A stretch of 64,000 nucleotides of DNA, from assembly GCF_000429165.1 (NCBI RefSeq), contig NZ_AUBI01000010.1:62001-126000 (forward strand), read 5' to 3'. Each line of letters opens with the position of its first letter. Positions within the stretch are counted from its first letter, which is position 1. The translations under genes were made by a program, and so were the position numbers. Source of the stretch: Acetobacter nitrogenifigens DSM 23921 = NBRC 105050 (lineage in GTDB: Bacteria > Pseudomonadota > Alphaproteobacteria > Acetobacterales > Acetobacteraceae). The notes under the pieces were generated by a model that ran no database searches, was not told where the DNA came from, and worked only from the letters and a program-made list of their open reading frames with translations. Of the stretch, positions 1,057 to 26,125 are shown piece after piece.

Positions 1057-3147
1057 TCACCCCCCGGTCCACCCGGGATGGAAATGACCGTAGATGGACC
1101 GGGCCGTTTCCCGGTTGATCCCGGGAGCGGCCTCCAGCTCGCTCAAACCCGCTTGACTGACGCCCCGCGCGGACCCGAACCGGTTCAGCAACGCCCGCTT
1201 GCGCGCGGCCCCGATGCCCGGAATGTCGTCCAGTTCCGACTTCACCAGCGACTTCGACCGCCCGGCCCGATGCGTGGTGATGGCGAAGCGATGCGCCTCA
1301 TCCCGCAGGCGCTGGAGATAGTAAAGCACCGGGTCGCGAGGCTCGAACTGAAACGGCGGCTGGTCGTCGGTGAAAAACCACTCGCGCCCTGCGTCACGAT
1401 CCGGTCCCTTGGCGATCGCCACCAGCTTCACCCCCGAGACGCCCAGGGCGTCCAGAACGCCGCGCACGGCCGAGAACTGTCCCGCGCCGCCGTCGATCAG
1501 CAACACGTCCGGCCAGTCGGCTCCAGCGCCCTCAGGGCGCCCTCCGGCAGAGGAAGTCACTGGCGTCTCTTCTCCTCCGACAGCGCCGCTCGACGTCGCG
1601 ACGTCCAACCTCTGCCCCGACAAACCGCCCGTCGCCGCAATGTCACCCGCCACACCCGCGCCAGAGGCCGAGGCAGCGCCCGCCTTCTCCGCCGCCTCCC
1701 GCAAGGCGCGGCCGAACCGACGTTCGAGCACTTCGCGCATCATCGCGAAATCGTCTCCTGGCGTGATCGCGCCCTTGATGCCGTATTTTCGGTAAGCGCG
1801 GCGCTCGAAGCCTTCCGGACCGCCCACGATCATCACGCCATAGGGGTTGGTCCCCATGATATGGCTGTTGTCGTAAACCTCGATCCGCGACGGCGGCGCG
1901 GACAGGCCGAACGCCTTAGCCACGCCCTCAAGCAGCTTCGCCTGTCCGGCGCTTTCCGCCATCTTGCGTTCCAAAGCTTCCCGGGCGTTCGTTTCGGCGT
2001 GTTCGACGACGTCCCGCCGCTCGCCGCGCTGGGGCCGCAGGATCTCCACCTTACGCCCCCGCCGGATCGACAGCGCCTCAGCCAGAAGCGTCTCTTCCGG
2101 CATCTCGCAATTGACCAGAACAAGCGGCGGCGGCGGCTTGTCGTCGTAGAACTGCGCCAGAAACGCCTGCAAGACGTCCGCGTCGGTTTCGTCGCGCGTG
2201 TGCGCGGGGAAGAACGCCCGGTTGCCGTTGTTGCGGCCACCACGAATGAAGAACACCTGAATGCAGGCCTGCCCGGCGTCCTGCCAGACCGCAATCACGT
2301 CGCCGTCGCCAATAGACGCCGGGTTCACCACGCTGGAATCCTGCATCTGCGCCAAAGCGCGAATGCGGTCGCGCAGCGTGGCCGCGCGCTCGTAATCGAG
2401 CGCTTCCGCCGCGCGCTCCATCTCCGCAGCGAACTCCGCCTTGATCTCCTTGTCGTTCCCCGACAGGAACTCCCGCGCCTGCGTCACCAGATGCGCGTAA
2501 TCCTCCTGACTGATCCGGTCGACGCAGGGGGCCGAACATCGCTTGATCTGGAACAGCAGACAGGGACGTGTCCGCGATGCGAACATCGAGTCCGTGCAGG
2601 TACGCAGCAGGAACACCCGCTGCATGATCGCCACCGTCTGATTCACCGCCCACGCCGACGCAAACGGCCCCCAATAGCTGGCGCCCTTCTCCATCTTGCC
2701 ACGATGCTTGGCGATCTGCGGAAACGGGTGCTGTTCCGTCAGCACCAGCCATGGGTAAGTCTTGTCGTCGCGCAACAGGATGTTGAAGCGCGGCTTCATG
2801 CGCTTGATGTAGTTGGCCTCAAGCAGCAGGGCTTCGGCTTCGGTATGCGTCGTCACGATCTCCATCGCGACGGTTTCCGAAACCATCCTGCGTATCCGTT
2901 CGGGCAGGCGCGAAAGCTGCGTGTAGGACGTGACCCGTTTCTTCAGCGCGCGCGCCTTGCCGACGTAAAGCACCTCTCCGGTCGAGCCGATCATCCGGTA
3001 AACGCCGGGCGACAGAGGCATTGTCTTCAGCGCCTCGGCTATGACCCCGACGCCGCGCTGAGTCGGCACGCCGCCCGTTTCCTCCACAGGAAGCGAGGCC
3101 TCCTGTTCATGCGTTTCCGTAGCGGAAAGATCGGACGATTCAGGCAT
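1057..3147 (-). CDS. uvrC: UvrABC system protein C (excinuclease subunit C)
   Basis: Makes both incisions during nucleotide excision repair after UvrB is loaded on damaged DNA. The 696 residues show, in order: a GIY-YIG nuclease domain (about 47-125, with GVY at 48-50 and YVG at 61-63), a Cys cluster (about 184-208), a UVR/UvrB-binding domain (about 232-268), the RNase H-like C-terminal nuclease (Asp in VYDNSH near 426 and in LLIDGG near 552) and tandem helix-hairpin-helix motifs (about 637-690). It is longer than typical UvrC (about 600-630) because of a non-conserved N-terminal tail of about 35 residues and an Ala/Gly/Ser-rich insertion at about 486-544, placed just before the second nuclease half. 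All expected catalytic landmarks are present, so it should be functional. Confidence 0.96.
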
Positions 3148-3464
3148 TCGATTTCATCCACCGAACTTGTGGATAAGTCTGTGGAATCAAAGATGACAGA
3201 TTTATGGAAGTCCCGGTCTTCCTCGCCATCCCTCGGATTGCATAAAATTTAGCCAAGAATGCTAACCCTTTGAAGTATATAAATTTAACCACTTATTAGC
3301 CGCCAAATCTCGGAGACGCCTCCGAAACCTTCTGAAAAAAACTCGTGTCAATCCCGGGAGTGGACAAAATTCACAGAAGCAGGCCGAAAAGGTGATCCTG
3401 ATTTGTTCCATATCCCCACGCCAGAACGCTCCAGACCCTTTTCAACCGGCCCACAGAGCCTAGG
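3148..3464. promoter_or_regulatory. AT-rich intergenic region with a perfect DnaA box, upstream of uvrC
   Basis: This 317-base gap lies between the uvrC start and the dipeptidase stop, both on the minus strand. It is clearly more AT-rich than its surroundings, particularly 3240-3300, as expected for the uvrC promoter. At 3168-3176 the plus strand reads TGTGGATAA, the exact complement of the DnaA consensus TTATCCACA, about 20 bases from the uvrC start codon. I see no credible gene here. Confidence 0.45.
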
Positions 3465-4511
3465 TCAGGCCGCCGTAGCGGCACGCTCGGCGGCACGAAG
3501 CACGCGACGGAAATTCCCTCCCCAGAACGCTTCGATCTCGCTGCGGTCGTAGCCACGGCTGACCAGTTCGGCCGTCAGGGAGAGCGACTCGCCCGCGTTC
3601 CGCCAGCCGTCCAGTTCTCCGCCGCCGTCGAAATCAGATGAGATCCCGACGTGTTCCGGGCCGATGCGGCGGACGACATAATCGAGATGATCCATGTAGT
3701 CCGCCACTGTCGCCCTACGAGAACCAAGCTCTGCACGCGGACGCAGGAACCCCCCCACGGCGGTGATCTGGATCACACCGCCGCTGGCCTTCAGCGCGTC
3801 AAGCTGCGCGTCGTCCAGATTGCGCGGATGGTCGCACAAGGCCCGCACGCACGCGTGGGTCGCGGCGACCGGCGTCGCTGAAACCTCCACCGCCTGCAAC
3901 ATCGTGTCGCGCGACGTGTGCGACACGTCCACCACCATCCCCAGCCGGTTCATCTCCGCAATGGCTGCCCGCCCCAGCGCCGACAGACCGCCATGGCGCG
4001 CCTCCGGATCGCCGAGCTTCCGGCTCGGCTGTCCCGAATCCGCCAGCGCGTTGTGCCCGTTATGAGTCAGCGTGACATAGCGCGCGCCAAGAGCGCGAAA
4101 GCGGGCGAGCATGCCGATGTCGTCGCCCATGCCGTATCCGTTCTCGACGCCCGGCATGACCACGAGAACCCCCTCCCGAAACGCGTCCTCCATCTTGTCC
4201 ACGGTGTCGCACACGCGCGCCTTCAGACCATTGCGCTCGCCCTGCATGCGATCGATCGCCGCCAGCATCTCCAGCGTCTGCGCCTGAGCCGCCGCATGGC
4301 CGTCAGCGTCGACCGAATCCTGCGCAATATAGGCGACGAAGCACCCCGCCGCGAGATGGCCCCGCCGCATCTTCGGGAAATCGACGCAACGCCCGGCCGT
4401 ATCGAGAAACGCGTCGTCACGGTCCGGCCACGGAATGTCGATGTGGCTGTCCAGGGTCAGCAACGACTCGTGTAGGGCGCGGACATCGTCCGAAACAGCA
4501 GCCTTCAGCAT
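3465..4511 (-). CDS. Membrane dipeptidase, peptidase family M19
   Basis: Zinc-dependent dipeptidase of the renal-dipeptidase/M19 family, which hydrolyses dipeptides, sometimes including those with a D-residue. The 348 residues begin near the metal-binding DSHID motif (D21, H23, D25). They continue with a conserved GVENG segment, the bridging-Glu region, VDVSHTS, the ATHAC histidine segment and HVGISSDFDG near the C-terminus. No signal peptide is visible, so a cytoplasmic location is likely. The start has an AAGGA ribosome-binding site 6 bases upstream. The physiological substrate cannot be read from the sequence. Confidence 0.9.
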   Translation of the reverse strand: MLKAAVSDDVRALHESLLTLDSHIDIPWPDRDDAFLDTAGRCVDFPKMRRGHLAAGCFVAYIAQDSVDADGHAAAQAQTLEMLAAIDRMQGERNGLKARVCDTVDKMEDAFREGVLVVMPGVENGYGMGDDIGMLARFRALGARYVTLTHNGHNALADSGQPSRKLGDPEARHGGLSALGRAAIAEMNRLGMVVDVSHTSRDTMLQAVEVSATPVAATHACVRALCDHPRNLDDAQLDALKASGGVIQITAVGGFLRPRAELGSRRATVADYMDHLDYVVRRIGPEHVGISSDFDGGGELDGWRNAGESLSLTAELVSRGYDRSEIEAFWGGNFRRVLRAAERAATAA

Positions 4512-4721
4512 GGGGCATCCTTGGAGGGGCTTCGTTCGCCGAGCGCTAGGAAGCGGGGAAAATCATGAACAGAAAATCGGCGCAGACGCCGCAGTTTACA
4601 AGACGGGAACGCGATCGGCGGCGCCACGCGGCCTCAAACCGGCGCGACGCGAAGGACAGGTACACAACGTCGCCACGAATTGCTCTTGCCGCGATCCGCT
4701 CGATAGGCGATCCCGATCCTC

Positions 4722-10456: not shown

Positions 10457-11665
10457 ATGAACGCTCCTCCCGGAAACGGACAGGCGACCGGGCAGGAGTT
10501 CGGAACAGACACCCTGGCGCGGCTCAGCGCCGCGCTGTTCCTGTCATACATGGCCGTGGCGCTGTCGCTGCCGGTGATTCCCGTCTTCGTCACGGGATTG
10601 TCGGGCTTCGGCAACATGTTCGCAGGACTCGCCGTCGGGATCGCGTTTCTTTCAACGATCCTGACCCGCAACTACGCAGGTGGCGTCGCCGATCGGCTCG
10701 GCGGCCATGTCTGCAAACGGCGCGGCCTGATTCTCTATATCGTTGCAAGCGCGCTTTGCGCAGCCGCGGCGCTTCCCACGCTGCCTCCCTCCCTCGCCTA
10801 TGCGGTGCTCATCGCCGGGCGCCTGCTACTCGGCCTTGGGGAGAGCCTGACCATCGTCGGAATGCTCGGCTGGGGCATCGGCCTTATGGGCCAGCCGCGT
10901 GCGGGGAAGGTCATGGCGTGGACCGGCGCTGCGATGTACGGCGCCTTCGCCGTAGGCGCGCCAGTCGGCCTCGCCCTGTTTCATCATTTTGGCTTTGGCG
11001 GCGTCATGGCCGTCGGCGCGATGGCCCCCGCACTGGGGCTGCTGCTCGTGCTCGGCGTGGCGCCCGCCCCCATCGCCGCCGGACGGCGCGAGTCATTCTG
11101 GCGCGTGCTCGGACGCATCTCCGGGCAGGGCGCAGCGGTTGGCCTGCAAGGCGTCGGGTTCGCAGGCCTCGGCGCGTTCATGACGCTGTATTTCCTGCAC
11201 CGTCACTGGCCCTATCCCGCATTGGGCCTGAGCCTGTTCGGCGGCGCATTTGTGCTGACCCGCGTGTTCTGCGGCCACCTGCCCGACAGGATCGGCGGCT
11301 ACCGTGTGGCCGTCGCCTCCCTCGCCGTGGAAGCCTGCGGCCAGTGGCTGCTCTGGAGCGCGCCCGATCCGTGGTTCGCATTCGCGGGCGCACTGCTGAC
11401 CGGGGCCGGATGTTCGATGGCCTTCCCGTCTCTGGGTGTCGAGGTCGTGAAGGTGATCCCGCCACAACTGCGTGGAGCGGCGCTCGGCGGCTTCGCCGCG
11501 TTTCAGGATCTCGCCTACGGCGCCACCGGCCCGATCGCCGGTCTTCTTGCCGACCACACGGGATACGGGTCTGTTTTCCTGCTCGGCGCGCTCTGCGCCA
11601 GTGCCGGGAGCGCGCTTACGGTCGTGTTGCTGAGACGCAGCCGGAGCGAGGCGGTAGTGGGCTGA
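10457..11665 (+). CDS. Major facilitator superfamily transporter (YhhS-like)
   Basis: 402 residues with about 12 hydrophobic helices in two halves. The loop after helix 2 has the MFS pattern (GGVADRLGGHVCKRRG), and helix 4-5 carries the GRLLLGLGESL motif typical of the YhhS/YfcJ sugar-efflux-like branch. It should export a small organic compound across the inner membrane. It sits 4 bases after the ABM gene. A paralogue with the same motifs lies at 59391-60599. Substrate unknown. Confidence 0.9.
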   Translation: MNAPPGNGQATGQEFGTDTLARLSAALFLSYMAVALSLPVIPVFVTGLSGFGNMFAGLAVGIAFLSTILTRNYAGGVADRLGGHVCKRRGLILYIVASALCAAAALPTLPPSLAYAVLIAGRLLLGLGESLTIVGMLGWGIGLMGQPRAGKVMAWTGAAMYGAFAVGAPVGLALFHHFGFGGVMAVGAMAPALGLLLVLGVAPAPIAAGRRESFWRVLGRISGQGAAVGLQGVGFAGLGAFMTLYFLHRHWPYPALGLSLFGGAFVLTRVFCGHLPDRIGGYRVAVASLAVEACGQWLLWSAPDPWFAFAGALLTGAGCSMAFPSLGVEVVKVIPPQLRGAALGGFAAFQDLAYGATGPIAGLLADHTGYGSVFLLGALCASAGSALTVVLLRRSRSEAVVG

Positions 11666-12576: not shown

Positions 12577-12776
12577 TTTTTTATCCGACCTTAGAAGTGA
12601 AAATATATTCTTCTATGTCTGATGAAATGACAATCTACATATAAAGCAGACCTTCCGTCCTCCCCCCAAGGCGGCCACTCACCATCCTCACGCACGGGGC
12701 GACACCTCCGCCCCTTACCGCGTAAGGTCAGATCATGACCTCTCAAACCCGGCGCCGCCGTGAAGGGAAAAGCCCC

Positions 12777-13988
12777 ATGCCCCGCCAATCCGTCGGTTTC
12801 GGCCGCCGTTCCCTGCTGGCCAAAGCCGCCGCCGCGCCTGCGCTTCCCATCGCCCTCGCTTCTGCGAAAGCGGCTAACGCGGCCTCCGGCGTCAATCCGG
12901 ACGCGCAGGGCGTGGCGGTGGCGCAGGACATGCTGCCAGCGGGGCAGATGGAGGTGATCGCCGCATTGCCCGATCCGGGGCCGTCCGGCATCGCCGTCAC
13001 GCCCGACGGGCGCGTCTTCATCAGCCTGCCGCGTCATGCGCAGGATCATGACCAGCCGACGCTTAACGAACTGCGCGACGGGCGTCTGACGGCGTTTCCC
13101 GATGCCGAGACGACACGCCCGAGCGCCCTGCCGCCCGAAGAAAAACTGATCTCGCTCCATGGCCTGACCATCGACACGCGCGGGCGTCTGTGGGGCATTG
13201 ATGACGGCAAGATCGCGGGCAAGCCTCTACAACCGGACGCTGCGAAAGTGGTCGGCTTCGACCCGGCTTCTGGCCGACGCATCGCCAGTCTCGTCCTCAA
13301 GTCGCCCGCGCTGCTTCCCGACAGCCATATGAACGACCTGCGGGTCGATCTGACGCATGGCGCGCAGGGCGTCGTCTATGTCGCGGACTCGTCGTTCGGA
13401 ACGTCGCCCGCGCTTGTCGTGATCGACATCGCGACGGGGCGACAACGGCGCGTCCTGTCCGGCCACCCCTCGATTGTCGCGGAGAAAGGCTTCGTCGCCG
13501 TACTGGAGGGCAAGCCGCGCCGGTATCAGGCGCAGCATGCGCAGTTTCCGACCGGCGGGGTCGACAGCATTACGCTGAGCACGGACAGCGCGATGCTCTA
13601 CTACTCCCCCCTGACCAGCCGTCGCCTTTACAGGCTGCCGACTGCGCTGCTGTCGAACTTCGACGCGACGGAGGAGCAGCTTGCCGCAGCCGTGGTCGAT
13701 CTGGGCGAGAAGGTGATGACGGACGGTCTGGCCACGGATCCCTGGAACCGCATTTATCTGACCGCCGGAGAGCACGACGCCATCATGCGTCGCAACGTCG
13801 ACGGCTCCATCGACGTGATCGCCCGCGACCGGCGCATTGTCTGGCCAGATGGAATCTTCGCTACGGATCGGCATGTTTACTGCGTTCTGGGGCAGTGGAA
13901 CCGCCTGCCCGCGATGAACGGCGGTCATAACCTGCGCCAGCCGCCCTATCTTATTGTCCGTTGCCCCATTACGCCGCCCGTCGGGTAG
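12777..13988 (+). CDS. Exported Yellow/major royal jelly protein-like beta-propeller protein
   Basis: After the signal region this protein has the pattern of the bacterial MRJP/Yellow family: PSGIAVTPDGRVFISLPRH, LHGLTIDTRGRLWGIDDG, HMNDLRVD, VYVADSS, GGVDSITLSTD, LYRLPTALL, TDGLATDPWNRIY and PDGIFATDRH. These are successive six-bladed propeller repeats. The N-terminus has a twin-arginine-like pattern (GRRSLLAKAAA) followed by a hydrophobic stretch and an Ala-rich cleavage site, so Tat export to the periplasm is likely. I start at the ATG at 12777; an in-frame ATG at 12735 would add 14 basic residues. Bacterial members have no settled function. Confidence 0.82.
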   Translation: MPRQSVGFGRRSLLAKAAAAPALPIALASAKAANAASGVNPDAQGVAVAQDMLPAGQMEVIAALPDPGPSGIAVTPDGRVFISLPRHAQDHDQPTLNELRDGRLTAFPDAETTRPSALPPEEKLISLHGLTIDTRGRLWGIDDGKIAGKPLQPDAAKVVGFDPASGRRIASLVLKSPALLPDSHMNDLRVDLTHGAQGVVYVADSSFGTSPALVVIDIATGRQRRVLSGHPSIVAEKGFVAVLEGKPRRYQAQHAQFPTGGVDSITLSTDSAMLYYSPLTSRRLYRLPTALLSNFDATEEQLAAAVVDLGEKVMTDGLATDPWNRIYLTAGEHDAIMRRNVDGSIDVIARDRRIVWPDGIFATDRHVYCVLGQWNRLPAMNGGHNLRQPPYLIVRCPITPPVG

Positions 13989-16284: not shown

Positions 16285-19200
16285 CTATCGCAGAGCCTCA
16301 GCGATGAGCCGGAAGGCGTCGCCCTCCACAAAATCGGCGCCTGCGAAAACCACGGTCACGCCGGCATCCGCCGCCAGCATTTGCAGCCCTGCCACGTCGG
16401 CCGCCCCAGACGCCAGAACAAGATCGACCCCAGCCAGCGCGCTCTCGGTCGCATCGGTCTTCTCGCCGTTCCAGAACAGCACGACAGGAGCGCCGCTTGC
16501 GTTTCGCAGCGTCGCAAGGACGTCCACCGCAGCCGCTTCCGGCCCGACCAGTATAGCCGACACGTCCCGTCCCCGACGCTCCAGCCAGTCGTCCAGACGT
16601 TCCCCGCCGTCAGCGCGCGGCATGCGGCCATGCGCCGTATCGTCAACATAAAACACATACCCGCGCCCCGCCTCACCTGCGAGACTTCGGCCCAAAGTCG
16701 AACCCGCCCTGTCGATCACCACAGCCATGAACGCAGGCTCCGTCACCACACTTCGCGCCATTGAAGCAGTCGCCCCGGCGCCAAGCCCGGATTCGTCTAT
16801 CGGCTGAGGAACATCGCTGAGCAGAGAGCGGCGAACATGTCGGATCGCCTCAACATCGCGGCGCTGCAGGGCATGTCCCCCGGATTTTCGCATATGCGAC
16901 GACAGGGCGTCCCCCCACTCAGCCAGCGAACGCCCGGCGAGGTCGCCGACATGATCGAGCGCCGCGTCGAGACATGCGTCCACTCCGCCGCCAGTCGTCG
17001 CGATGGAGCAACGCACGACGAAGCATCCGCCCTCAAGCGAAGCGGCCTTGACGGTTCTCCCGTGTTGTCTGGAGCCCTCCGCACCCGACAAAGCCGCATC
17101 CGAAATCGTCGCTCCCGCCGCCTCGACAATCCCGGGGGCGACCAGCACGACCCGCTCGTCCTGCGCAAATGACGCCGCTATAGCGTCGAGCGCCCCCGCA
17201 GCGAGCCAAAAGCTGCTTTCCATCACAACCGCCAGATCGCCCAAGGCCCGCAGCAGCCCGAGCCTGACCGTGGGGGCCACACGAACCGGCAGGGCAGCCA
17301 GCAGCGTCTTCACGATGGCGTCCTCCACGCCGACCAATATGACGTCGACATTCGCCTGAGTCGTCAGCGCGTAGATGCAGCGCCATAGCGCGTAAGGCGA
17401 GGAATTACCGACGATCACAGCGGAATACGGCGCGACCGCAGCTCCAAAACCCTGAACGGGAGCAGGCGGCAGCGCCGGGTCGTCCTCCCCGACGCCTCGC
17501 GTATCTCGCGTAGACAGGAGATATCCGGTTAATGCGCCGACTTCAGTGAATTCCGGATGTTCAGCCAGGTACGCGCGGGGATCGAACAGCGGATGCGGCG
17601 CCAGTCCGAGACTCTCTCCAACTGTGACATAGTGAACGAGCGGATTGATCTCGAGCGCCGCTGCAGCAAGATATTCAGCGCGATACCAGCCGGGAAGGAA
17701 ACCGGGATTCGGTCGCGCGCCGCCATTTCTGTCGAGAAAATCCTCCAGCAGAGTCGAACCACGCAAGGGGCCGGGCAGCCCTCCCTCGCAATACAACGCC
17801 CCCTCAAACAAAGGATGCGGGTCTGACGCAGCATAGGGCGCAGCGCGCAAATAATGCGCCAGCGGGTTGCCCTGAACACCGTATCCAGCCTCGCCGACGA
17901 GATTTTCAGACGGGGAACGACTGAGAACGCCTGCCAGATAATAAACCGAGTCGAACAGTGGGTGCGGATCGATCCCCAGTTCACAACCCACACGGCAATA
18001 ATGTTCGACGAGGTTCGTCTCAGACGTTAGTTCGGCTCGATCAGGCCGCGCGTCGCATTGGGCGCGATACCACTCCGCGTCGAACAACGACGATCCGGAA
18101 ATCAGCGCCATATCGTCATCGAAGGCGCTCCTGGGCGTGAGGGCGCATGATGCGCGCGGCAGAGTCTCCGACGCCGATTCCGCTGCGGCCTCATGCAAGG
18201 CATGCTGCCGCCGTTCTACATCCTGACCGGATTCACATTCGCTGTGGGAAGATACAGGCGTTCCGGCTTCCGGACCGGAAGCATCCAAGACGGGCGCCTC
18301 ATCAACCACCCCCTCGGGCGAGAGGGACGAACCAGCAACCAGAGTGGAAGACCACGGCTCCTGACCAGACGACTGGGCCTGCATCCGGTCTGAAGATACT
18401 GGAGTCCGACGGCGCAGTATGCTTCCCAAAGCAGGAACCCGCCGCAATAATCTCGCCAGCGCGCTGGAAGTCTCGAGGGATGGAGCCGCGTTCGCCTCGT
18501 AGTCCGCGCCTGTGTCATCGCAATCCGGCACGACATCATACGAAACTGCAGCAACTGCGGCCTCATCGCCACTGCCGGGCAGACGTTCACGCGCAACCAC
18601 CACGCCATGCTGAACCGCGCCGCCATTCTCCGCCGCTTCGTCCGTCGGACCTGCACGCCCCTGCGAACTCACATCGCCAGAGCCCCTTGCACCGTGAGAT
18701 GCGTCTCCGCGACCGGGCTCCGCCGCATCACGGCGCCCAATTACGTCATTGGGCGCGTCAGCATCAACGGACATGCCGACATCGCCATGCCCCGCCACCT
18801 CGGAAGAGGGATGCGCGCCGCCACACACAACTTCATCGCACGCGCTTGAACAGTCGCCGCCGCCAGCCTGATCACCCGGACGTTCGCCGCCTAACGTCAC
18901 TCCGTTGCGGCGCATCCGTGTGTCGTTATCCTGATCTGCGTCGTCACCTGCATCCGCAGCGTCCTGCTTCGTCGCGCCGTTTTGCTGCGCTTCCCCTCCG
19001 GGCGTCGCCGTGCTCTCCCCCGCAGGAGCGCCGGAAGCCGCGTGACCGCTACCCGCAGCGACTCCAGCTTGCCGGAAAGAGGCGATATCCTCGTTCGCGC
19101 GGCGCAGTTGGGCCTCAAGCCGCACGACCAGAGCGGTCAGTCCACGAACGTGACTATCCTGTGCATGAACGCGTTCGATTAGCTCAACGAAACGCCGCTC

Positions 19201-19395
19201 CAGAAACATGTCCGCCGTTTCCTGGTCAACAGGAGGAAAGCGGTCGACGTCGGAGGCCTCGCGCGGGAGATCAGCGCGACCGAAATCGGGCGTGCTCACT
19301 GGCTCGCCGCCATTCAACCCGAACACGCCCAACCGCGACCGCAACCGCTGGAAAGCCCCTCCCGACGTATGATCGGCGTCATCTGCGGTTGTCAT
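16285..19395 (-). CDS. Large surface-glycan protein with FDxxxY/PLxHY modules and a degenerate glycosyltransferase-like region
   Basis: 1036 residues in three parts. The N-terminus (1-108) ends in a likely coiled coil (about 68-106). Residues 110-430 are low-complexity, rich in Gly, Ala, Asp and Ser. Residues 437-630 hold about five degenerate copies of a module of the form F(D/E)xxxY...NPLxHYxxxGxxxGxxPHPLF; copies begin near 438, 481, 530, 566 and 604. This module is common beside glycosyltransferase domains in proteins of exopolysaccharide clusters. Residues 645-1036 resemble a GT2-like fold (VIVGNSSPYALWRCIYAL), but the usual acidic metal-binding motif is replaced by MESSFW, so catalysis is doubtful. 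gmhA and a GT2 gene lie upstream on the same strand. Role inferred: assembly of a surface glycan. Confidence 0.75.
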   Translation of the reverse strand: MTTADDADHTSGGAFQRLRSRLGVFGLNGGEPVSTPDFGRADLPREASDVDRFPPVDQETADMFLERRFVELIERVHAQDSHVRGLTALVVRLEAQLRRANEDIASFRQAGVAAGSGHAASGAPAGESTATPGGEAQQNGATKQDAADAGDDADQDNDTRMRRNGVTLGGERPGDQAGGGDCSSACDEVVCGGAHPSSEVAGHGDVGMSVDADAPNDVIGRRDAAEPGRGDASHGARGSGDVSSQGRAGPTDEAAENGGAVQHGVVVARERLPGSGDEAAVAAVSYDVVPDCDDTGADYEANAAPSLETSSALARLLRRVPALGSILRRRTPVSSDRMQAQSSGQEPWSSTLVAGSSLSPEGVVDEAPVLDASGPEAGTPVSSHSECESGQDVERRQHALHEAAAESASETLPRASCALTPRSAFDDDMALISGSSLFDAEWYRAQCDARPDRAELTSETNLVEHYCRVGCELGIDPHPLFDSVYYLAGVLSRSPSENLVGEAGYGVQGNPLAHYLRAAPYAASDPHPLFEGALYCEGGLPGPLRGSTLLEDFLDRNGGARPNPGFLPGWYRAEYLAAAALEINPLVHYVTVGESLGLAPHPLFDPRAYLAEHPEFTEVGALTGYLLSTRDTRGVGEDDPALPPAPVQGFGAAVAPYSAVIVGNSSPYALWRCIYALTTQANVDVILVGVEDAIVKTLLAALPVRVAPTVRLGLLRALGDLAVVMESSFWLAAGALDAIAASFAQDERVVLVAPGIVEAAGATISDAALSGAEGSRQHGRTVKAASLEGGCFVVRCSIATTGGGVDACLDAALDHVGDLAGRSLAEWGDALSSHMRKSGGHALQRRDVEAIRHVRRSLLSDVPQPIDESGLGAGATASMARSVVTEPAFMAVVIDRAGSTLGRSLAGEAGRGYVFYVDDTAHGRMPRADGGERLDDWLERRGRDVSAILVGPEAAAVDVLATLRNASGAPVVLFWNGEKTDATESALAGVDLVLASGAADVAGLQMLAADAGVTVVFAGADFVEGDAFRLIAEALR

Positions 19396-19535: not shown

Positions 19536-20189
19536 TCAATCTTCTACGCGCTGCGGGCAGAGCGTGCGCTCGACGAGGCCACAGACAATATGCCCTGCGG
19601 TGATGTGCATCTGCTGGATCAGCGGCGTCCACGCTGAAGGAACAGCCACGGTCACATCGCATGTCGCCCCGACGATTCCAGCTTCACCGGAGAACGCAGC
19701 CGTGATCACGCCAGCGTCTCGCGCCGCCTGGAAGGCGCGCAGAATATTTGGCGACTTCCCCGAAGTCGAAATCCCCAGAAACACGTCGCCGGGGCAGCCG
19801 AGCGCCGAGACCTGGCGCGCGAACACCTCGGCAAAGCCGTAGTCGTTGCTGATGGCCGTCAGGCTTGAACTGTCCGTGGTCAAAGCCACTGCGCTCAATG
19901 GACGACGATCATACATCAAACGCCCGGTGAACTCCGCAGCGATGTGTTGCGCGTCCGCCGCACTGCCGCCATTCCCTGCGACCAGCAGCCGTCCACCCGC
20001 AGCCAGTGACGTGGAGATACGCTCTGCAAGGTCATGCATGGCCGCCTGAGCCGCCTCATCCTCAGCGAACGCGACCATCGCTTCCGCAGAACGCCGCAGA
20101 TAATCGACCATAAAGCCGCGATCCTCGACCTTGGGCCGGGTGGACGTGACGGAAAGCTCGGCGGCGGCGGCCAGGTCTATGGAGATCAT
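19536..20189 (-). CDS. gmhA: Phosphoheptose isomerase (sedoheptulose 7-phosphate isomerase)
   Basis: Converts sedoheptulose 7-phosphate to D-glycero-D-manno-heptose 7-phosphate, the first step of ADP- or GDP-heptose synthesis. The SIS domain shows GmhA signatures: AGNGGSAADAQHIAAEFTGR, LTTDSSSLTAISNDYGF, GISTSGKSPNI and HITAGHIVCGLVE. Starts at 20111 (191 residues, matching the family length) and 20189 both have GAGGA upstream; I give the longer. The open frame extends further to 20459, but that stretch is not GmhA-like. It lies between two glycan genes, so the heptose probably feeds this locus. No heptose kinase or nucleotidyltransferase is in the window. Confidence 0.9.
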   Translation of the reverse strand: MISIDLAAAAELSVTSTRPKVEDRGFMVDYLRRSAEAMVAFAEDEAAQAAMHDLAERISTSLAAGGRLLVAGNGGSAADAQHIAAEFTGRLMYDRRPLSAVALTTDSSSLTAISNDYGFAEVFARQVSALGCPGDVFLGISTSGKSPNILRAFQAARDAGVITAAFSGEAGIVGATCDVTVAVPSAWTPLIQQMHITAGHIVCGLVERTLCPQRVED

Positions 20190-20433
20190 CGCACACGTTG
20201 TCCTCATCCCGACATGCGCCTTAACATCCCGTCCGACCGGCCACTGTCGGCCGCGCGTCTGAAACCCCTGCGTTTGAACTTCAGAGCCAAACGTCCCGGA
20301 AAGCGCCTGCACTGAGTCGCTTATAAACTTTCGGCGCACTGGGCAAGGACGCGCAGCAGGCACGCACTGCGTGAGAGAGAAAGCGCCACTGACTGATCGA
20401 AGGGCGATCATTACGCCTTGACGCCCAGCCCTG

Positions 20434-22635
20434 TCATCTTCCCCCCTCGGGACAGCCATGTTGATCAGCCGGCGGCGCCAGCAGAACGTCCCGATCAGTT
20501 AGTTTCAGATTGGGATTTATCGTCGCGTCCGAGGCGATAAGCGCGCTCCAGCGGCCGATCAACCGCGCCGTTTCCCTGAAGAAGCGCACCTGACGGTCCG
20601 ACCGATAGTCCCTTCCCCGCGTTGCGCCATCTATGTGGGTCAACACGGCGTGCGGCGTCCACACGACGCGCCGCCCCGCGGCGACAACGCGCAAACAGAG
20701 GTCGACGTCGTTGCATGTCACGCGAAACTCTTCGTCCAACCCGCCCAATTCCTCAAATAATGCGCGATGAATCAGCAGACAGGCTCCCGTCACCGCCAGC
20801 ATGTCGCGTTGCCACCCGATCTGGCCAAGGTATCCTCCTTCCCCGGACGAAGCGTAACGCAGGATATGCGTCGCTCCGTCCGGCGTCAGCGCCATACCGC
20901 CATGCTGCAGCGTTCCATCTGGATAGAGCAGGCGCGCGCCGACGACGCCGACGCCCGGGCGAAGCGCCTGCCGGACCAGCTCATCCAGCCAGTCGCGACG
21001 CAGGATCTCGATATCGTCGTTGAGCAGAAGCAACAACTGGCCGCTCGTGCCGCGCGCCGCCTCGTTGTTCAGCGCCGCCCAGTTGAACGGAGTGTCGATC
21101 CGTCGCACTGTCACACGTGGATCGGCTGCGAGCTGCCGCAATAGCGCCGCCGCCTCAGGCTCGACGCCTCCATTGTCGACGATGGTCACGTCGAAAGCAG
21201 GGTAATCCGTGTCGTAGAGCAATCCGGAAAGACAGCGCGCGAGCAGATCCGGGTTATCACGCGTCAGAATGACAATCGAAACCGTAGGCATGACTGTCGG
21301 CAATGGGTAGAGAACACGGGGCCACAGCATGCTGTGGGTGGTCGGACCTGCTACGTCCAGAGAGGCCTCCGTCAACCTCAGGCCAGGACGGCAATCGGCG
21401 ATATGGCGCGCCACGACAGCATGCTCCACAAAAACAGGCGCATGAGGGGACGCCCGGGCAGCCACCATCTGCGACGGTCCGGAAAATCCGCGCCCGCGAT
21501 GAAACAGCACGCGCGGCAGATGCACAATCTGGTCAGTCGCCGTCGCCTCCGCAACGCGTAACTTTACTGCAAGCTGGAACGCCCGCTCCCGCTCCTCCAC
21601 ACTCCACTGCCGAACGTCGCAAGCCTCAGCCGTTCTCACGCACGCGGTAGCCGCGTCCAGACCGCCAACCGCAATAATCCGCTCGCGCGCCATGACGGCG
21701 AGTTGCCCAATTGTGTCGCCGCCCAGCAGTTGATCGTCACTCCATCCGGGCTTGAAACGCCCGCCCCATCGACGCCCGTGCGCGTCGATCCTGTCCTCGT
21801 CGGTATAAAGCAGAGCCGTTTCAGGCAATTCCGCCAAAGCTTCCGCAATAAACTGCACTGCCGACGCCCTCAGACGATCGCCGGGTTCGAGGAAGGCGAT
21901 AAACGGCGTCTCCGCTGCCTGAAAGGCAACCTGTCGCGCGTCAACGTCGGGCGGCACGGAGAGAACCCGCACGCGTGGATCTTTACACGCCCCATCGAGC
22001 AGTCGCTCCACAGTGCGAAAGTCGTCAACGCTCGCCGCGACACATGCCGCCCACCCAGGATGAGTCTGGGTCCGCAATGAGGCAAGCGTTTCTTCCAGAA
22101 GATCAAAACGCCAGGCTGGCACATTCAATAAAAAGGTGATCGACGGTTTTTGATCCGCAGCTAGCGGAGCATCTTTCGGCCCGCCCTCGCTATCATATCT
22201 CTCTGCCCACAAGGCATAGGCGCGATCGTCCTGCACTGGCGCGCCATGCGGATAAAGCCATTCGAACGGATCGAAACGGCCCAGAATTTCCGGGGCCCCG
22301 GCCACCTCCGCCAGCACCGAGGCTCGGCTCGACCGGCGGGCGAAGCGCATATATTCGAGCGTCGTGGGCTCGCGGCCTAACGCGTCGCGAAACAATGCGC
22401 GCACGAATAGCACATCGGACTCGTGCTTAGCGCCGTATCGTTGGCGGAATTCGTCAGAACCGACGATCATGTCCGCCATACGGTCCACAGCGGTCACGTC
22501 CGCAAACGGCGCATCCAGCGTTTCCATTACAGAAACGAAATGCTCTACCGCAGGCCGTTCGGGCAAGCGCCCCAGAGCAGTGGCGAAGACCTGAACTACC
22601 GCAGCCGCCTTGTCCGCGTCACGACGAGAGTTCAT
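20434..22635 (-). CDS. Two-domain family 2 glycosyltransferase with N-terminal DUF4214-like repeats
   Basis: About 733 residues. The N-terminus carries two copies of a DUF4214-like helical unit (about 12-67 and 74-117; the second contains VRALFRDALGREP followed by SRASVLAEVAGAPE). A first GT2-like domain (about 164-385) keeps TDED near 278. A second, better-conserved GT2 domain (about 449-675) has VSIVILTRDN, VDNGG, LLNDDIE, TGACLLIHR and a C-terminal ND motif. Such tandem GT2 proteins extend surface polysaccharides or O-antigens. I start at the ATG at 22635; a TTG at 22710 is an in-frame alternative. The gene is divergent from the GT4 pair and upstream of gmhA. Confidence 0.88.
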   Translation of the reverse strand: MNSRRDADKAAAVVQVFATALGRLPERPAVEHFVSVMETLDAPFADVTAVDRMADMIVGSDEFRQRYGAKHESDVLFVRALFRDALGREPTTLEYMRFARRSSRASVLAEVAGAPEILGRFDPFEWLYPHGAPVQDDRAYALWAERYDSEGGPKDAPLAADQKPSITFLLNVPAWRFDLLEETLASLRTQTHPGWAACVAASVDDFRTVERLLDGACKDPRVRVLSVPPDVDARQVAFQAAETPFIAFLEPGDRLRASAVQFIAEALAELPETALLYTDEDRIDAHGRRWGGRFKPGWSDDQLLGGDTIGQLAVMARERIIAVGGLDAATACVRTAEACDVRQWSVEERERAFQLAVKLRVAEATATDQIVHLPRVLFHRGRGFSGPSQMVAARASPHAPVFVEHAVVARHIADCRPGLRLTEASLDVAGPTTHSMLWPRVLYPLPTVMPTVSIVILTRDNPDLLARCLSGLLYDTDYPAFDVTIVDNGGVEPEAAALLRQLAADPRVTVRRIDTPFNWAALNNEAARGTSGQLLLLLNDDIEILRRDWLDELVRQALRPGVGVVGARLLYPDGTLQHGGMALTPDGATHILRYASSGEGGYLGQIGWQRDMLAVTGACLLIHRALFEELGGLDEEFRVTCNDVDLCLRVVAAGRRVVWTPHAVLTHIDGATRGRDYRSDRQVRFFRETARLIGRWSALIASDATINPNLKLTDRDVLLAPPADQHGCPEGGR

Positions 22636-22895
22636 TGCACGAAAAAAACCCCATTCCTGATGATCGTCCAATACAACATGGAAAACGGAAGGAGGAATCT
22701 CATGCTTCAAGGGGTGCCCGCAAAGCGTCCGGCGCGCAAGACTTCCCCCGGTTCCGCCCCTCGAAACACAGTTTCCGCATGCGCTTGACGCTCATATAAA
22801 CATGTGGTCCATCGAAACGTTCACGATGTACAGATCGGCATTGGCGTGTATATTTGCGTCTGCCGGAAACCAGACTTGCTACGGAACTCCTGTAT

Positions 22896-24581
22896 ATGGC
22901 TAGCCCTTCTTCAGACAAAACGCCTGCCTATACACTTTGGATCGATGTAGACGATCTCTTCCAATATGCTGCTTCCAACCCTCGCCCGAGCGGCATTCAG
23001 CGTCTGGTATACGAAATTCTGAGGGTTCTTGAGCAAAGAGCCGAGACCAGACCCGATGCTCCACGCGTTGTTTTCGTTCGACGCGGCGCTGACGGTTCGG
23101 CACTTTCCAAAATCGCGTTCCGTGACATTGAAGCCATATTCGATCGCCTTTCCGGCGACACGGCGCCTACGTCGTCCAAGAGCGTGCCGTCTACCGACAA
23201 ACCGGCGCAGAAAGTGGCTCGCCCGACGCCCTCCCCGACTTCGTCCGCTCCTGTCGATAGACGCGCCAAGCGCATGCTCAAACGACTTTTGTGCATGTTT
23301 ACTCCCGTGGGACTGATGCAACATGCGCGACACAGCGCTATTCGGCGTCTGGAGGCATTACCTCCCAGCATAGCCAACCCGTTCCTTACCGCGGGCGTGA
23401 TGCAGGTCCGCACCGCTCGACTGGCGCGACGATACTGGAGCCTTAAGCGCGCGCGACGGCTTTATGAAACCTCGCATGAAGCCTCTGCTGCGACATCGAC
23501 CGTGCACCACGCCGAGCGGCCCGTTATTACTTCCATCGATTCGTTCTCTTCGGCGTCGCCGACGATCCCGACCTACGACACCGCGCCCAGCGACATCTTC
23601 CTCGTTCTGGGCGCCCCCTGGTCCGATCCGCTTTTTGGCGAACGCCTGCGGGTGGTTCGCGAGATTCACGGGCTGCGGCCTGTCCTGCTACTTTACGATC
23701 TCATCCCCGTCCGCCGCCCCGAGTGGTGCGCGCAGTCATTGGTCGAAGTTTTTCGCCACTGGCTTGACTCTACCCTGCCCCAGTGCGCGCACCTTCTGGC
23801 GATCAGCGACGCCACCGCGCGCGACGTGGAGCGCTACGCGGAAGAGGAAGGGTTGCGTCTGGCCGACAAGGTGCGCACCATTCGCCTCGGCACCGGGTTC
23901 GGCCTGACGGCGCAACAGGATGAGCCGAAAGACGCCACGCCGCCGGGCGGATTGCCCAAACCTGGCACCTACGTGCTCTTCGTATCGACAATGGAGGCAC
24001 GCAAAAATCATGCGCTGCTTTTCCGGGTGTGGCGTCGCCTCATCGCTGAATTGGGCGCGGACGCCGTACCGACTCTTGTCTTCGCCGGGCGCGTCGGCTG
24101 GCTGGTCGCAGACCTGATGCAACAGCTCGAAAACACGGACTGGCTGGATGGCAAGATTCGCCTTCTGCGTGATCCGAGCGACGAAGAACTGCGTTGGCTC
24201 TATCGTGGCTGCATGTTCACCGTTTTCCCTTCCCTGTTTGAAGGCTGGGGTCTGCCGGTGACGGAAAGCCTCATGATGGGCAGCCCGTGCGTCGCCTCGA
24301 ACGTAACATCCGTTCCGGAAGCTGGCGGAGCCTTCGCCCGCTATTTCAATCCGGAAAGCGCCAAGGATGCGACCGCCGTGATCCGTGACGTGATCGCCGA
24401 CCGCGCAGGCCTCGCTCTCTGGCGGGAGCAGGTCACGAAGGACTTCCCGCGCGTTTCCTGGGAAACAACAGCCGACGCCGTGCTGGACGCCTGCGCCGCT
24501 GCTCATAAACCGGAAGGCGCAGACAACGTGTCCGCCAACAAACTCCCGACGCCTGCCCTCGTCAAGGGAGGCGTGCAATGA
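22896..24581 (+). CDS. Family 4 glycosyltransferase (first of a tandem pair)
   Basis: 561 residues from the ATG at 22896 (an in-frame TTG at 22854 would add 14). The N-terminus has the signature LWIDVDDLFQY...RPSGIQRLVYEILR, seen in GT4 enzymes of acetic acid bacteria. Then comes a variable Ala/Pro/Ser-rich region and a standard GT-B C-terminal half: FVSTMEARKNHALL, FAGRVGW, and the E-x7-E motif within FEGWGLPVTES. The enzyme should transfer a sugar from a nucleotide donor to a growing surface glycan in the cytoplasm. Its stop overlaps the start of the next GT4 gene by 4 bases, so the two are translationally coupled. Confidence 0.92.
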   Translation: MASPSSDKTPAYTLWIDVDDLFQYAASNPRPSGIQRLVYEILRVLEQRAETRPDAPRVVFVRRGADGSALSKIAFRDIEAIFDRLSGDTAPTSSKSVPSTDKPAQKVARPTPSPTSSAPVDRRAKRMLKRLLCMFTPVGLMQHARHSAIRRLEALPPSIANPFLTAGVMQVRTARLARRYWSLKRARRLYETSHEASAATSTVHHAERPVITSIDSFSSASPTIPTYDTAPSDIFLVLGAPWSDPLFGERLRVVREIHGLRPVLLLYDLIPVRRPEWCAQSLVEVFRHWLDSTLPQCAHLLAISDATARDVERYAEEEGLRLADKVRTIRLGTGFGLTAQQDEPKDATPPGGLPKPGTYVLFVSTMEARKNHALLFRVWRRLIAELGADAVPTLVFAGRVGWLVADLMQQLENTDWLDGKIRLLRDPSDEELRWLYRGCMFTVFPSLFEGWGLPVTESLMMGSPCVASNVTSVPEAGGAFARYFNPESAKDATAVIRDVIADRAGLALWREQVTKDFPRVSWETTADAVLDACAAAHKPEGADNVSANKLPTPALVKGGVQ

Positions 24582-26125
24582 CTGGCCGCACGCTATGGGT
24601 CGATATCGACGACCTGCTTTATCACCTCTCCCACCACAATCGCCCGAGCGGCATTCAGCGTGTCGTGTATGAGCTGAGCCGTGCTCTGGTGACTATGGCG
24701 CCAGACCATGTCCGCTTTGTGCGCCGCGGTCATGGCCCGTGCGACTTCGTAACCGTCGACTGGACCTATATCCACGCGCTGTTCGACAGCGTGACCGGCG
24801 CCGCGCCGACGCAGGCGCCACCTCCTGCAGCGCCTCCGCCGCCGAGACCGGGCGTTCCGTTTGCGCCGCCCGCCGACAATGCCGCGCTGCTGCCCGCCAT
24901 ACTCGACACGCAGTTGGAGGTCGTAAAACAACTCGCGGTAGCACCCCTTAACGCTGTTCAGCATGCGTTGCGCATGATTGACGTCAAACGCCGCGCCAAT
25001 ATCGAACGCGAGGCTCTACTCGCGGAAGTCGGCGAAGACGCCGTCGTGGTGGAAGAAGGCGTTCGCCTGGCTGACGCCGCACGCCCGGGCGATGCGTTCT
25101 TCGTTCCTGGATCGCCCTGGCGTCATGCGGACTACGGACGTTCGGTGCGCTGGCTCCGTGATGAATTGCGGATGTCTTTCGGTCTGCTCATGTACGATCT
25201 CGTACCGATCAGGTGCCCGGAATGGTGCGATCGCGGCATCATCTCCACATTCTCTCAATGGCACCGCATGATCCTACCGCTCGCGGACCGGATTTTCGCC
25301 ATCAGTGACGCGACACGGCGCGACGTCGAAGCACATGCTGTCGAACAGCGCCTGCTCCTTAACGACGCCGTGCAGTCGATCGGCATGGGCTCGGGCTTCG
25401 GCCAAACGCCGCAGCAAGACGCTGGCCGCCCAAAATTGTCAGGCAAGCGCTGGCCCAGCGCCCAGCGTTCGCCTCACCTGCCGCCAGAAGGCAGCTACGT
25501 CCTGTTCGTCTCGACCATTGAGGCCCGAAAGAACCACGCGTTGCTCTTTCGGGTATGGCGGCGTCTTTTGGAAGAACGTCCTGCAGAGGATGTCCCTACA
25601 CTGGTATTCGCCGGTCGGGTCGGCTGGCTTGTCGCCGATCTGATGCAGCAACTGGAAAACGCCAACTGGCTTGACGGAAAAATCAGGCTGATCAGCGGCC
25701 CGTCCGACGCGGAACTGGCCGAACTTTATCAAGGCTGCCTGTTCACCGCGTTCCCCTCGATCTTTGAGGGATGGGGACTGCCGGTCACCGAAAGCCTCAG
25801 TTTCGGCAAGCCTTGCGTGGCGTCCTCCACCACATCGATCCCGGAGGCCGGGGGGCCTTTGGGGCGCTACTTCGATCCGGAGGACATCGACGACGCGCTC
25901 CGGGTAATCGGCGAGGTTCTCGACGACCCTGCTGGGTTAGAGCAGTGGCGGCGACAGGTGGTGCGGGAATTCGTCCCCACGCCATGGGAGACACAGGCCC
26001 GCAGCGTGCTGAAGGCCTACGGCGTCGAGTTCGGCGCGACGCCGCACTCGACGGCGAAATCTCAGGACATGTCTTCCGGAAAGAACTCCCTCCGGAAGAC
26101 GCCCATGCAGAAGGCCTCGCCTTAA
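24578..26125 (+). CDS. Family 4 glycosyltransferase (second of a tandem pair)
   Basis: 515 residues. It begins MTGRTLWVDIDDLLYH...RPSGIQRVVYEL and ends with the same GT-B block as its neighbour: FVSTIEARKNHALLFRVWRR, VFAGRVGWLVADLMQQLEN, and E-x7-E in FEGWGLPVTES. The two proteins are near-identical over these stretches but differ in the middle (a Pro-rich spacer at about 87-105 here), so they arose by tandem duplication and probably differ in acceptor use. The ATG overlaps the upstream stop (ATGA). The 3' end overlaps the convergent PfkB kinase gene by 4 bases, leaving no room for a separate terminator. Confidence 0.92.
   Translation: MTGRTLWVDIDDLLYHLSHHNRPSGIQRVVYELSRALVTMAPDHVRFVRRGHGPCDFVTVDWTYIHALFDSVTGAAPTQAPPPAAPPPPRPGVPFAPPADNAALLPAILDTQLEVVKQLAVAPLNAVQHALRMIDVKRRANIEREALLAEVGEDAVVVEEGVRLADAARPGDAFFVPGSPWRHADYGRSVRWLRDELRMSFGLLMYDLVPIRCPEWCDRGIISTFSQWHRMILPLADRIFAISDATRRDVEAHAVEQRLLLNDAVQSIGMGSGFGQTPQQDAGRPKLSGKRWPSAQRSPHLPPEGSYVLFVSTIEARKNHALLFRVWRRLLEERPAEDVPTLVFAGRVGWLVADLMQQLENANWLDGKIRLISGPSDAELAELYQGCLFTAFPSIFEGWGLPVTESLSFGKPCVASSTTSIPEAGGPLGRYFDPEDIDDALRVIGEVLDDPAGLEQWRRQVVREFVPTPWETQARSVLKAYGVEFGATPHSTAKSQDMSSGKNSLRKTPMQKASP

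Follow-up and report, generated by a model that had tools for sequence, protein, structure and literature searches.

The window analysed here is a stretch of 64,000 nucleotides from Acetobacter nitrogenifigens DSM 23921 (contig NZ_AUBI01000010.1), and at positions 16285-19395 of its minus strand it carries an open reading frame (ORF) for a protein of 1036 amino acids, made up of a coil, a spacer, five repeated modules, a GT2-like glycosyltransferase region and half of a GT4-like one. The frame was confirmed to be intact over this whole length, and an orthologue of 1033 amino acids lies on the minus strand in the sister genome G452 (L147:7561-10659). The ORF protein had no match in Pfam, NCBIfam or PHROG at E values up to 1, and a sequence search of the PDB returned nothing meaningful (best E value 1.2). 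Its coil occupies residues 46-110 (19066-19260) and is followed by a low-complexity spacer of about 320 residues (111-430; 18106-19065), which an earlier interpretation made from the DNA letters (hereafter the sequence-only reading) had rightly placed ahead of the modules. The spacer contains a basic stretch near residues 311-331; of the full-length relatives, five were aligned across it, and in these it is missing or far shorter. An origin as a frameshift or annotation artefact was ruled out: the N-terminus, coil and modules share one frame, and across the spacer the orthologue stays in that frame, a single gap of three residues apart.

Probable descent from a coil, five-module, GT2 and GT4 enzyme

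Residues 421-1036 were matched in 88 of 397 genomes sampled from the family (the window's own genome included) at E values up to 1e-9. Seven full-length relatives from the same family (L041 and L116-L121) have the same modules ahead of an intact GT2, with the motifs LNNDT and EEFDLA, and a complete GT4; some also have methyltransferase or pyruvyltransferase-like domains. The ORF protein shares with them the five modules and the domain order, whereas it has lost both motifs and the complete GT4 that they retain. In its GT2-like region (residues 657-870; 16786-17427), M725ESSFW730 (17206-17223) aligns with the LNNDT of all seven relatives, so that the acidic metal motif of the DxD type is gone, as the sequence-only reading had recognized; the orthologue has TESNLW at this place. 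The catalytic-base region EEFDLA has become HVGDLA, with both glutamates lost and D818 kept, and the eight residues that follow NLGFLR in 7/7 relatives are deleted. Only 30 of 95 invariant GT2 positions are kept, the other 65 being changed or deleted (15 deleted).

The loss is wider than the sequence-only reading had claimed. Its description held for GT2, but it overlooked a half GT4 in the last ~150 residues: a shortened GT4 first half (residues 885-1036; 16288-16743) that keeps 17 of 94 invariant positions, with 32 deleted, and whose second half is absent. The alignment to the relatives' GT4 and the ORF itself both stop inside this first half, leaving no complete two-half GT-B domain, and none of the three frames past the stop, read by eye up to the aldehyde dehydrogenase gene, continues it. 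By alignment, no intact DxD-type site exists elsewhere in the C-terminal half, where the GT2 fold was modelled at low confidence. D847-V-E849 in the GT2-like part falls where the relatives have RDxQ, downstream of the catalytic-base region, and none of the acidic pairs of this half, among them D918-D919, D935-D936 and, near the end, E1024-G-D1026 in the GT4-like part, aligned to the GT-A site.

Among the seven relatives (21 pairs), identity is 37-73% for the modules, 54-84% for GT2 and 56-90% for the GT4 half; between the ORF protein and the relatives (seven pairs), the corresponding ranges are 36-46%, 24-28% and 21-29%. BLAST among a small set of fetched ORFs aligned six of the seven relatives over the modules and the C-terminal half together (residues 428-1025; best E value 3.5e-38), and we take the C-terminal half to be homologous because it is collinear after the modules and continuous with them. 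When a first AlphaFold model of the protein was compared using VIA, mainly over residues 876-1036, glycosyltransferases ranked first (Z 8.0-8.4, 137-143 residues); the predicted local distance difference test score (pLDDT) is below 70 there, and this ranking is consistent with a GT-B half. We conclude that the ORF protein probably descends from a glycosyltransferase composed of a coil, five modules, GT2 and GT4.

Selection on the retained parts

Among 49 genomes of the genus, the window's own included, the orthologue was found in G452 only. The ratio of nonsynonymous to synonymous substitution rates (dN/dS) between the two genes was estimated by the Nei-Gojobori method, with 95% ranges from 1000 bootstraps. 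It is 0.154 (0.089-0.245) for the modules, 0.18 (0.07-0.40) for the coil, 0.28 (0.16-0.47) for the GT4 half and 0.41 (0.24-0.70) for GT2, and none of the 1000 bootstraps reached 1 for any of these four; the spacer, at 0.68 (0.50-0.93), is the fastest-evolving part. The ratio of the GT2 value to that of the modules has a range of 1.33-5.65, and the GT2 part is therefore under less constraint; the range for the GT4 half relative to the modules is 0.83-3.91 and includes 1. Values for neighbouring genes are 0.10 (GmhA), 0.16 (the double GT2 gene, GT2x2), 0.22 and 0.07 (GT4a and GT4b), 0.07 (PfkB), 0.11 (the gene at 12735-13988) and 0.004 (aldehyde dehydrogenase); for the MFS neighbour (10457-11665), the sequence fetched around the orthologue contained no match. 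Constraint on the modules and coil is strong and lies within the range of these working neighbours, and the catalytically dead GT2/GT4 part is under purifying selection that is weaker but real.

A comparison of dN with the seven relatives showed a reversal. The ratio of dN in GT2 to dN in the modules is 1.37-1.68 in all seven pairs of the ORF with a relative, versus 0.52-0.75 in 21/21 pairs of relatives; the pairs share branches and are not independent, so this reversal shows one changed lineage. Together, the motif loss, the rate reversal and the retained purifying selection bear out the claim of the sequence-only reading that the enzyme half has been retired; the new role may, as that reading had it, be a structural one.

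These data bear on two other explanations. The ORF could be a decaying pseudogene, its enzyme half on the way out and the remainder functionless, which would fit the loss of both catalytic sites and of the GT4 second half, the faster evolution of GT2, the failure to find donor pathway genes and the existence of relatives that have the coil alone at this place (see below). We consider this unlikely, because the frame is open over 1033-1036 codons in two species, there are zero indels between them from residue 431 to the end, and dN/dS is clearly below 1 in the modules, GT2 and GT4 parts, with 0/1000 bootstraps at or above that value. Alternatively, the purifying selection that GT2 still shows (dN/dS 0.41) and the retention of D818 might mean that the protein is still a glycosyltransferase, acting by an unusual chemistry that dispenses with the customary acidic motif. 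That the motif is not only lost but differs between the orthologues, that the residues after NLGFLR are missing and that 65/95 invariant positions are altered make this very improbable.

The module array and its distribution

The five FDxxxY/PLxHY modules, of ~38 residues each, occupy residues 437-639 (17479-18087). A profile built solely from the modules of other proteins and then run on the ORF protein gave a whole-protein score of 79.3 bits and detected four of the five units; the maximum among 2000 shuffles of residues 437-639 with the same profile was 11.2 bits. Module 1 (residues 437-479; 17959-18087) scored 31.5 bits, module 4 (565-602; 17590-17703) 37.8 bits over residues 568-602, and module 5 (603-639; 17479-17589) 10.2 bits over residues 603-619. 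Module 2 (480-528; 17812-17958), which has an insertion relative to other proteins, is weak (5.9 bits) and was also placed by alignment, and module 3 (529-564; 17704-17811), the most degenerate, is recognized by alignment with relatives and by the structural model only. The count of about five degenerate modules in the sequence-only reading thus stands; a crude motif count had found fewer than the later profile. The ORF protein keeps 40 of the 44 module positions that are invariant among the seven relatives.

AlphaFold2, run on 21 aligned arrays with that of the window first, returned a model with a mean pLDDT of 87.0 and a predicted template modelling score (pTM) of 0.84. The model consists almost entirely of helices and predicts five helical hairpins, one per module, in agreement with the structural repeat expected from the letters. 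Foldseek against the PDB gave no meaningful match, returning one chain at E values up to 10 (E 9.4, probability 0.02), and a second look with VIA-align had two chains only to align; a new fold is thus possible for the predicted array. No Pfam match to TPR or Sel1 profiles was found at E values up to 1 in the ORF protein or in the module protein L044, and TPR matches in L125 precede the modules and lie outside them. In further module proteins, the modules were covered by no Pfam, PHROG or NCBIfam model above its cut-off. A literature search by module motif strings found one unrelated paper or none, and other names for the module could exist. A link to giant viruses, raised by weak fold matches to their proteins (the best a glycosyltransferase, E 0.15, probability 0.13), was left unconfirmed; IMG/VR gave no match to one bacterial array used as query, which reaches close relatives only, and no phage record matched a module array.

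In a sample of 398 genomes from the phylum, the array profile matched 50 at E values up to 1e-5. Of the 68 fetched ORFs that contain two or more units, 26 have five, the commonest number, and 18 have two; the largest number is 13. The modules accompany WbsX, GT2, GT4, RgpF with a HAD-like domain, methyltransferase, or TPR plus GT2; a Desulfolutivibrio protein combines them with a weak sulfotransferase match. WbsX/GH99-like glycosyltransferases (PF14307) and RgpF (PF05045) thus carry the same modules as the ORF protein, but their catalytic domains are different ones. A WbsX protein with five modules is encoded in the window's own genome (L037:9635-10759; G000:C14), where it ends at 83 of 350 WbsX positions and looks truncated. 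On plasmid pAB510f of Azospirillum sp. B510, a GT4-annotated protein (L206:6726-11822) has 35 consecutive module matches and adjoins dTDP-rhamnose genes; matches of the Azospirillum array to protein O-mannosyltransferase (28.5 bits, cut-off 800) and to A1S_2505_Nterm (18.7 bits, cut-off 45) are far below the cut-offs and were taken as chance. The window's genome also encodes small proteins (L038:9911-10393, minus strand, and L208) of 140-163 amino acids, in which two modules are combined with an N-terminus that is basic and of low complexity. Such two-module proteins, which occur also in the relatives L045 and L067, are possible partners of the arrays.

Modules are found at the C-terminus of two serralysin-like M10 peptidases (Pseudoroseomonas) and of a cadherin-like protein (Methylobacterium), which are presumably secreted. 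In these proteins (L203:534-2444 and 2693-4615; L204:2771-4681) six modules lie at the extreme C-terminus, where a type I secretion signal is expected. Their occurrence on cytoplasmic sugar enzymes and on presumably secreted proteins alike would be explained if the modules bound the growing surface polysaccharide. The conserved aromatic residues (F, Y, HY) and the fusions to GT2, GT4, WbsX, RgpF, methyltransferase and weakly matched sulfotransferase-like domains, as well as to the peptidases and the cadherin-like protein, speak for carbohydrate binding. However, the aromatics recur at the same place of each module in the alignment and may equally be packing residues, and among the carriers are small basic proteins that lack an enzyme; we regard carbohydrate binding as a doubtful explanation. 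The sequence-only reading had offered a scaffold or a glycan-binding element; either fits the hairpin array and its partners, protein docking as well as glycan binding.

Loss of the acidic motif in module proteins has occurred elsewhere too. A second family of ~1000-amino-acid module-GT2-GT4 proteins resembles the ORF protein in having module arrays and, in some members, a GT2 without acidic motif, and is unlike it in that a complete GT4 with the K..E signature remains. Of the 397 genomes sampled from the family, 278 have matches at E values up to 1e-30, and not all of these matches need belong to the second family. Nine of the 62 distinct proteins read (63 rows, L039 and L156 being identical) have lost the acidic motif; 50 of the rows comprise the 30 best matches and 20 hand-picked places and are not a random sample; L130 was counted in an earlier tally (8/14 without acidic motif) and left out of the 62. 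The glutamate of the GT4 signature (P[TS]R...K..E, read from the alignment) is kept in 61/62 and is an aspartate in L197, so second-family proteins with a dead GT2 may retain one working enzyme half. On a tree of the GT4 part, loss of the acidic motif needs three changes, two of which are forced by well-supported branches. The window's genome encodes a second-family protein (L040:4462-7446; G000:C37) that has LGQG in place of LNND, a motif found also in L052, L053, L056, L060 and L061.

Neighbouring genes and proposed role

The syntenic neighbours of the ORF are genes for a GmhA-like sedoheptulose-7-phosphate isomerase (19536-20459, minus strand) and for the double GT2 protein GT2x2 (20434-22710, minus strand), which has an acidic site of its own, LNDD, and whose N-terminus scored 22.7 bits against DUF4214, just under the cut-off of 23.2. 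Two GT4 glycosyltransferase genes follow on the plus strand (22854-24581 and 24578-26125). A homologue of GT2x2 lies near the full-length gene in 7/7 relatives, though on the other strand in L121, and GmhA does so in three of the seven (L041, L117 and L120). Beside the full-length gene, six of the seven (all except L121) have a homologue of the GHMP kinase of L117, and five (L041, L116, L117, L118 and L120) have one of the nucleotidyltransferase/phosphatase fusion of L041. The best NCBIfam matches, all below curated cut-offs, are to HddA for the kinase (L117 and L041) and to GmhB and HddC for the fusion (L041); by family match, these genes would belong to a pathway of the GDP-heptose type. In the window, neither gene lies between the ORF and GmhA. 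A search of 61 genomes for the HddA-type kinase at E values up to 1e-15 found it in G014 only, a genome that also encodes the full-length enzyme. The window's genome gave no such match, and for the HddC/GmhB fusion it gave partial matches only (25.8 and 23.5 bits). The window's genome has an HldE-type kinase domain over its cut-off, and GmhA may therefore still have a use.

The coil of the ORF protein also matches coil-only ORFs of ~100 amino acids that adjoin GmhA in five relatives (L043, L055, L071, L072 and L075). No module array was found in the stretches searched around them, that of L043 ending with its contig 248 bases past the coil ORF; in L072, an 87-amino-acid ORF on the opposite strand with a single module-like match was taken as chance. 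Both arrangements occur in G014, which has a full-length gene with the HddA-type kinase and HddC/GmhB-type fusion (C41, L041) and, in another cluster that is reduced, a coil-only gene next to GmhA (C10, L043). Ten loci from a GmhA scan, the best three from Gluconobacter (63-66%), had no coil, module or C-terminal-half match.

We consider it probable that the ORF encodes a retained pseudo-glycosyltransferase, once an enzyme and now serving as a scaffold for surface-glycan assembly. Several observations weigh against this. The C-terminal half matched a profile of the relatives' GT2-GT4 region weakly, at 11.9 bits (16.8 for the orthologue; at most 7.2 in 2000 shuffles), hhalign gave an E value of 3.6e-4 with a probability of just 37%, and phmmer with this half alone found no relative at an E value of 0.01. 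The GT2 part of the first AlphaFold model has pLDDT block means of 22-65 and offers no usable view, and Foldseek with that model found no match at E values below 0.001. Furthermore, the lost acidic motif is compatible with an unusual metal-free or other activity, the orthologue occurs in one of 48 further genomes searched within the genus, and sister lineages can do without the array, as the coil-only relatives show. In favour of the scaffold are the loss of motifs that all seven relatives keep, the reversed dN ratio, the dN/dS values below 1, the pathway homologues not found, the coil-only genes beside GmhA, the recurrent loss of the acidic motif in the second family and the confident hairpin model. 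Selection kept the array while the catalytic motifs were lost, which argues that the array has a function in itself.

The probable ancestor is thus a coil, five-module, GT2 and GT4 enzyme whose gene adjoins an HddA-type kinase gene in 6/7 relatives. In the lineage of the window, GT2 lost its acidic and base motifs and GT4 its second half, and a search of the genome did not find the pathway homologues. On the scaffold reading, the array of helical hairpins may form, together with the coil, a docking platform for the enzymes of the neighbouring glycan cluster (GT2x2 and the two GT4s) or for its acceptor, and the dead GT2/GT4 part would persist as a surface with a structural or regulatory use, in binding or in stability. 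The protein would then act much as a helical-repeat substrate-docking domain does, such as the TPR part of FlmG, its own catalysis being absent. FlmG of Caulobacter crescentus is described as having an N-terminal TPR domain that binds flagellins and confers specificity on the glycosyltransferase (PMC7591256). The two proteins are alike in having a helical-repeat N-terminal domain, which in FlmG binds the acceptor protein (PMC7591256); FlmG, however, joins TPRs to an active GT-B domain, whereas the repeat of the ORF protein is not a TPR by Pfam and its glycosyltransferase motifs are lost. FlmG may thus serve as the nearest model, as an analogue and not a family member.

More speculatively, and with less confidence than for the scaffold role itself, the FDxxxY/PLxHY hairpin might be a docking module, so far undescribed, that serves the assembly of surface glycans in Alphaproteobacteria and their relatives, N-terminal on sugar enzymes and C-terminal on secreted proteins, which would meet at one assembly or export site. 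The adjoining dead GT2 domains would then be recurrent non-catalytic subunits of complexes of this sort, and the ORF protein, with both glycosyltransferase halves dead, the extreme case. The ORF protein is a clear case of a modular glycosyltransferase without catalytic motifs in which the repeat array is retained. The array itself is a confidently predicted helical repeat that has no library family above cut-off in the proteins tested, though it is present in 50/398 genomes of the phylum, and genome annotation may be counting dead GT2 domains as enzymes.

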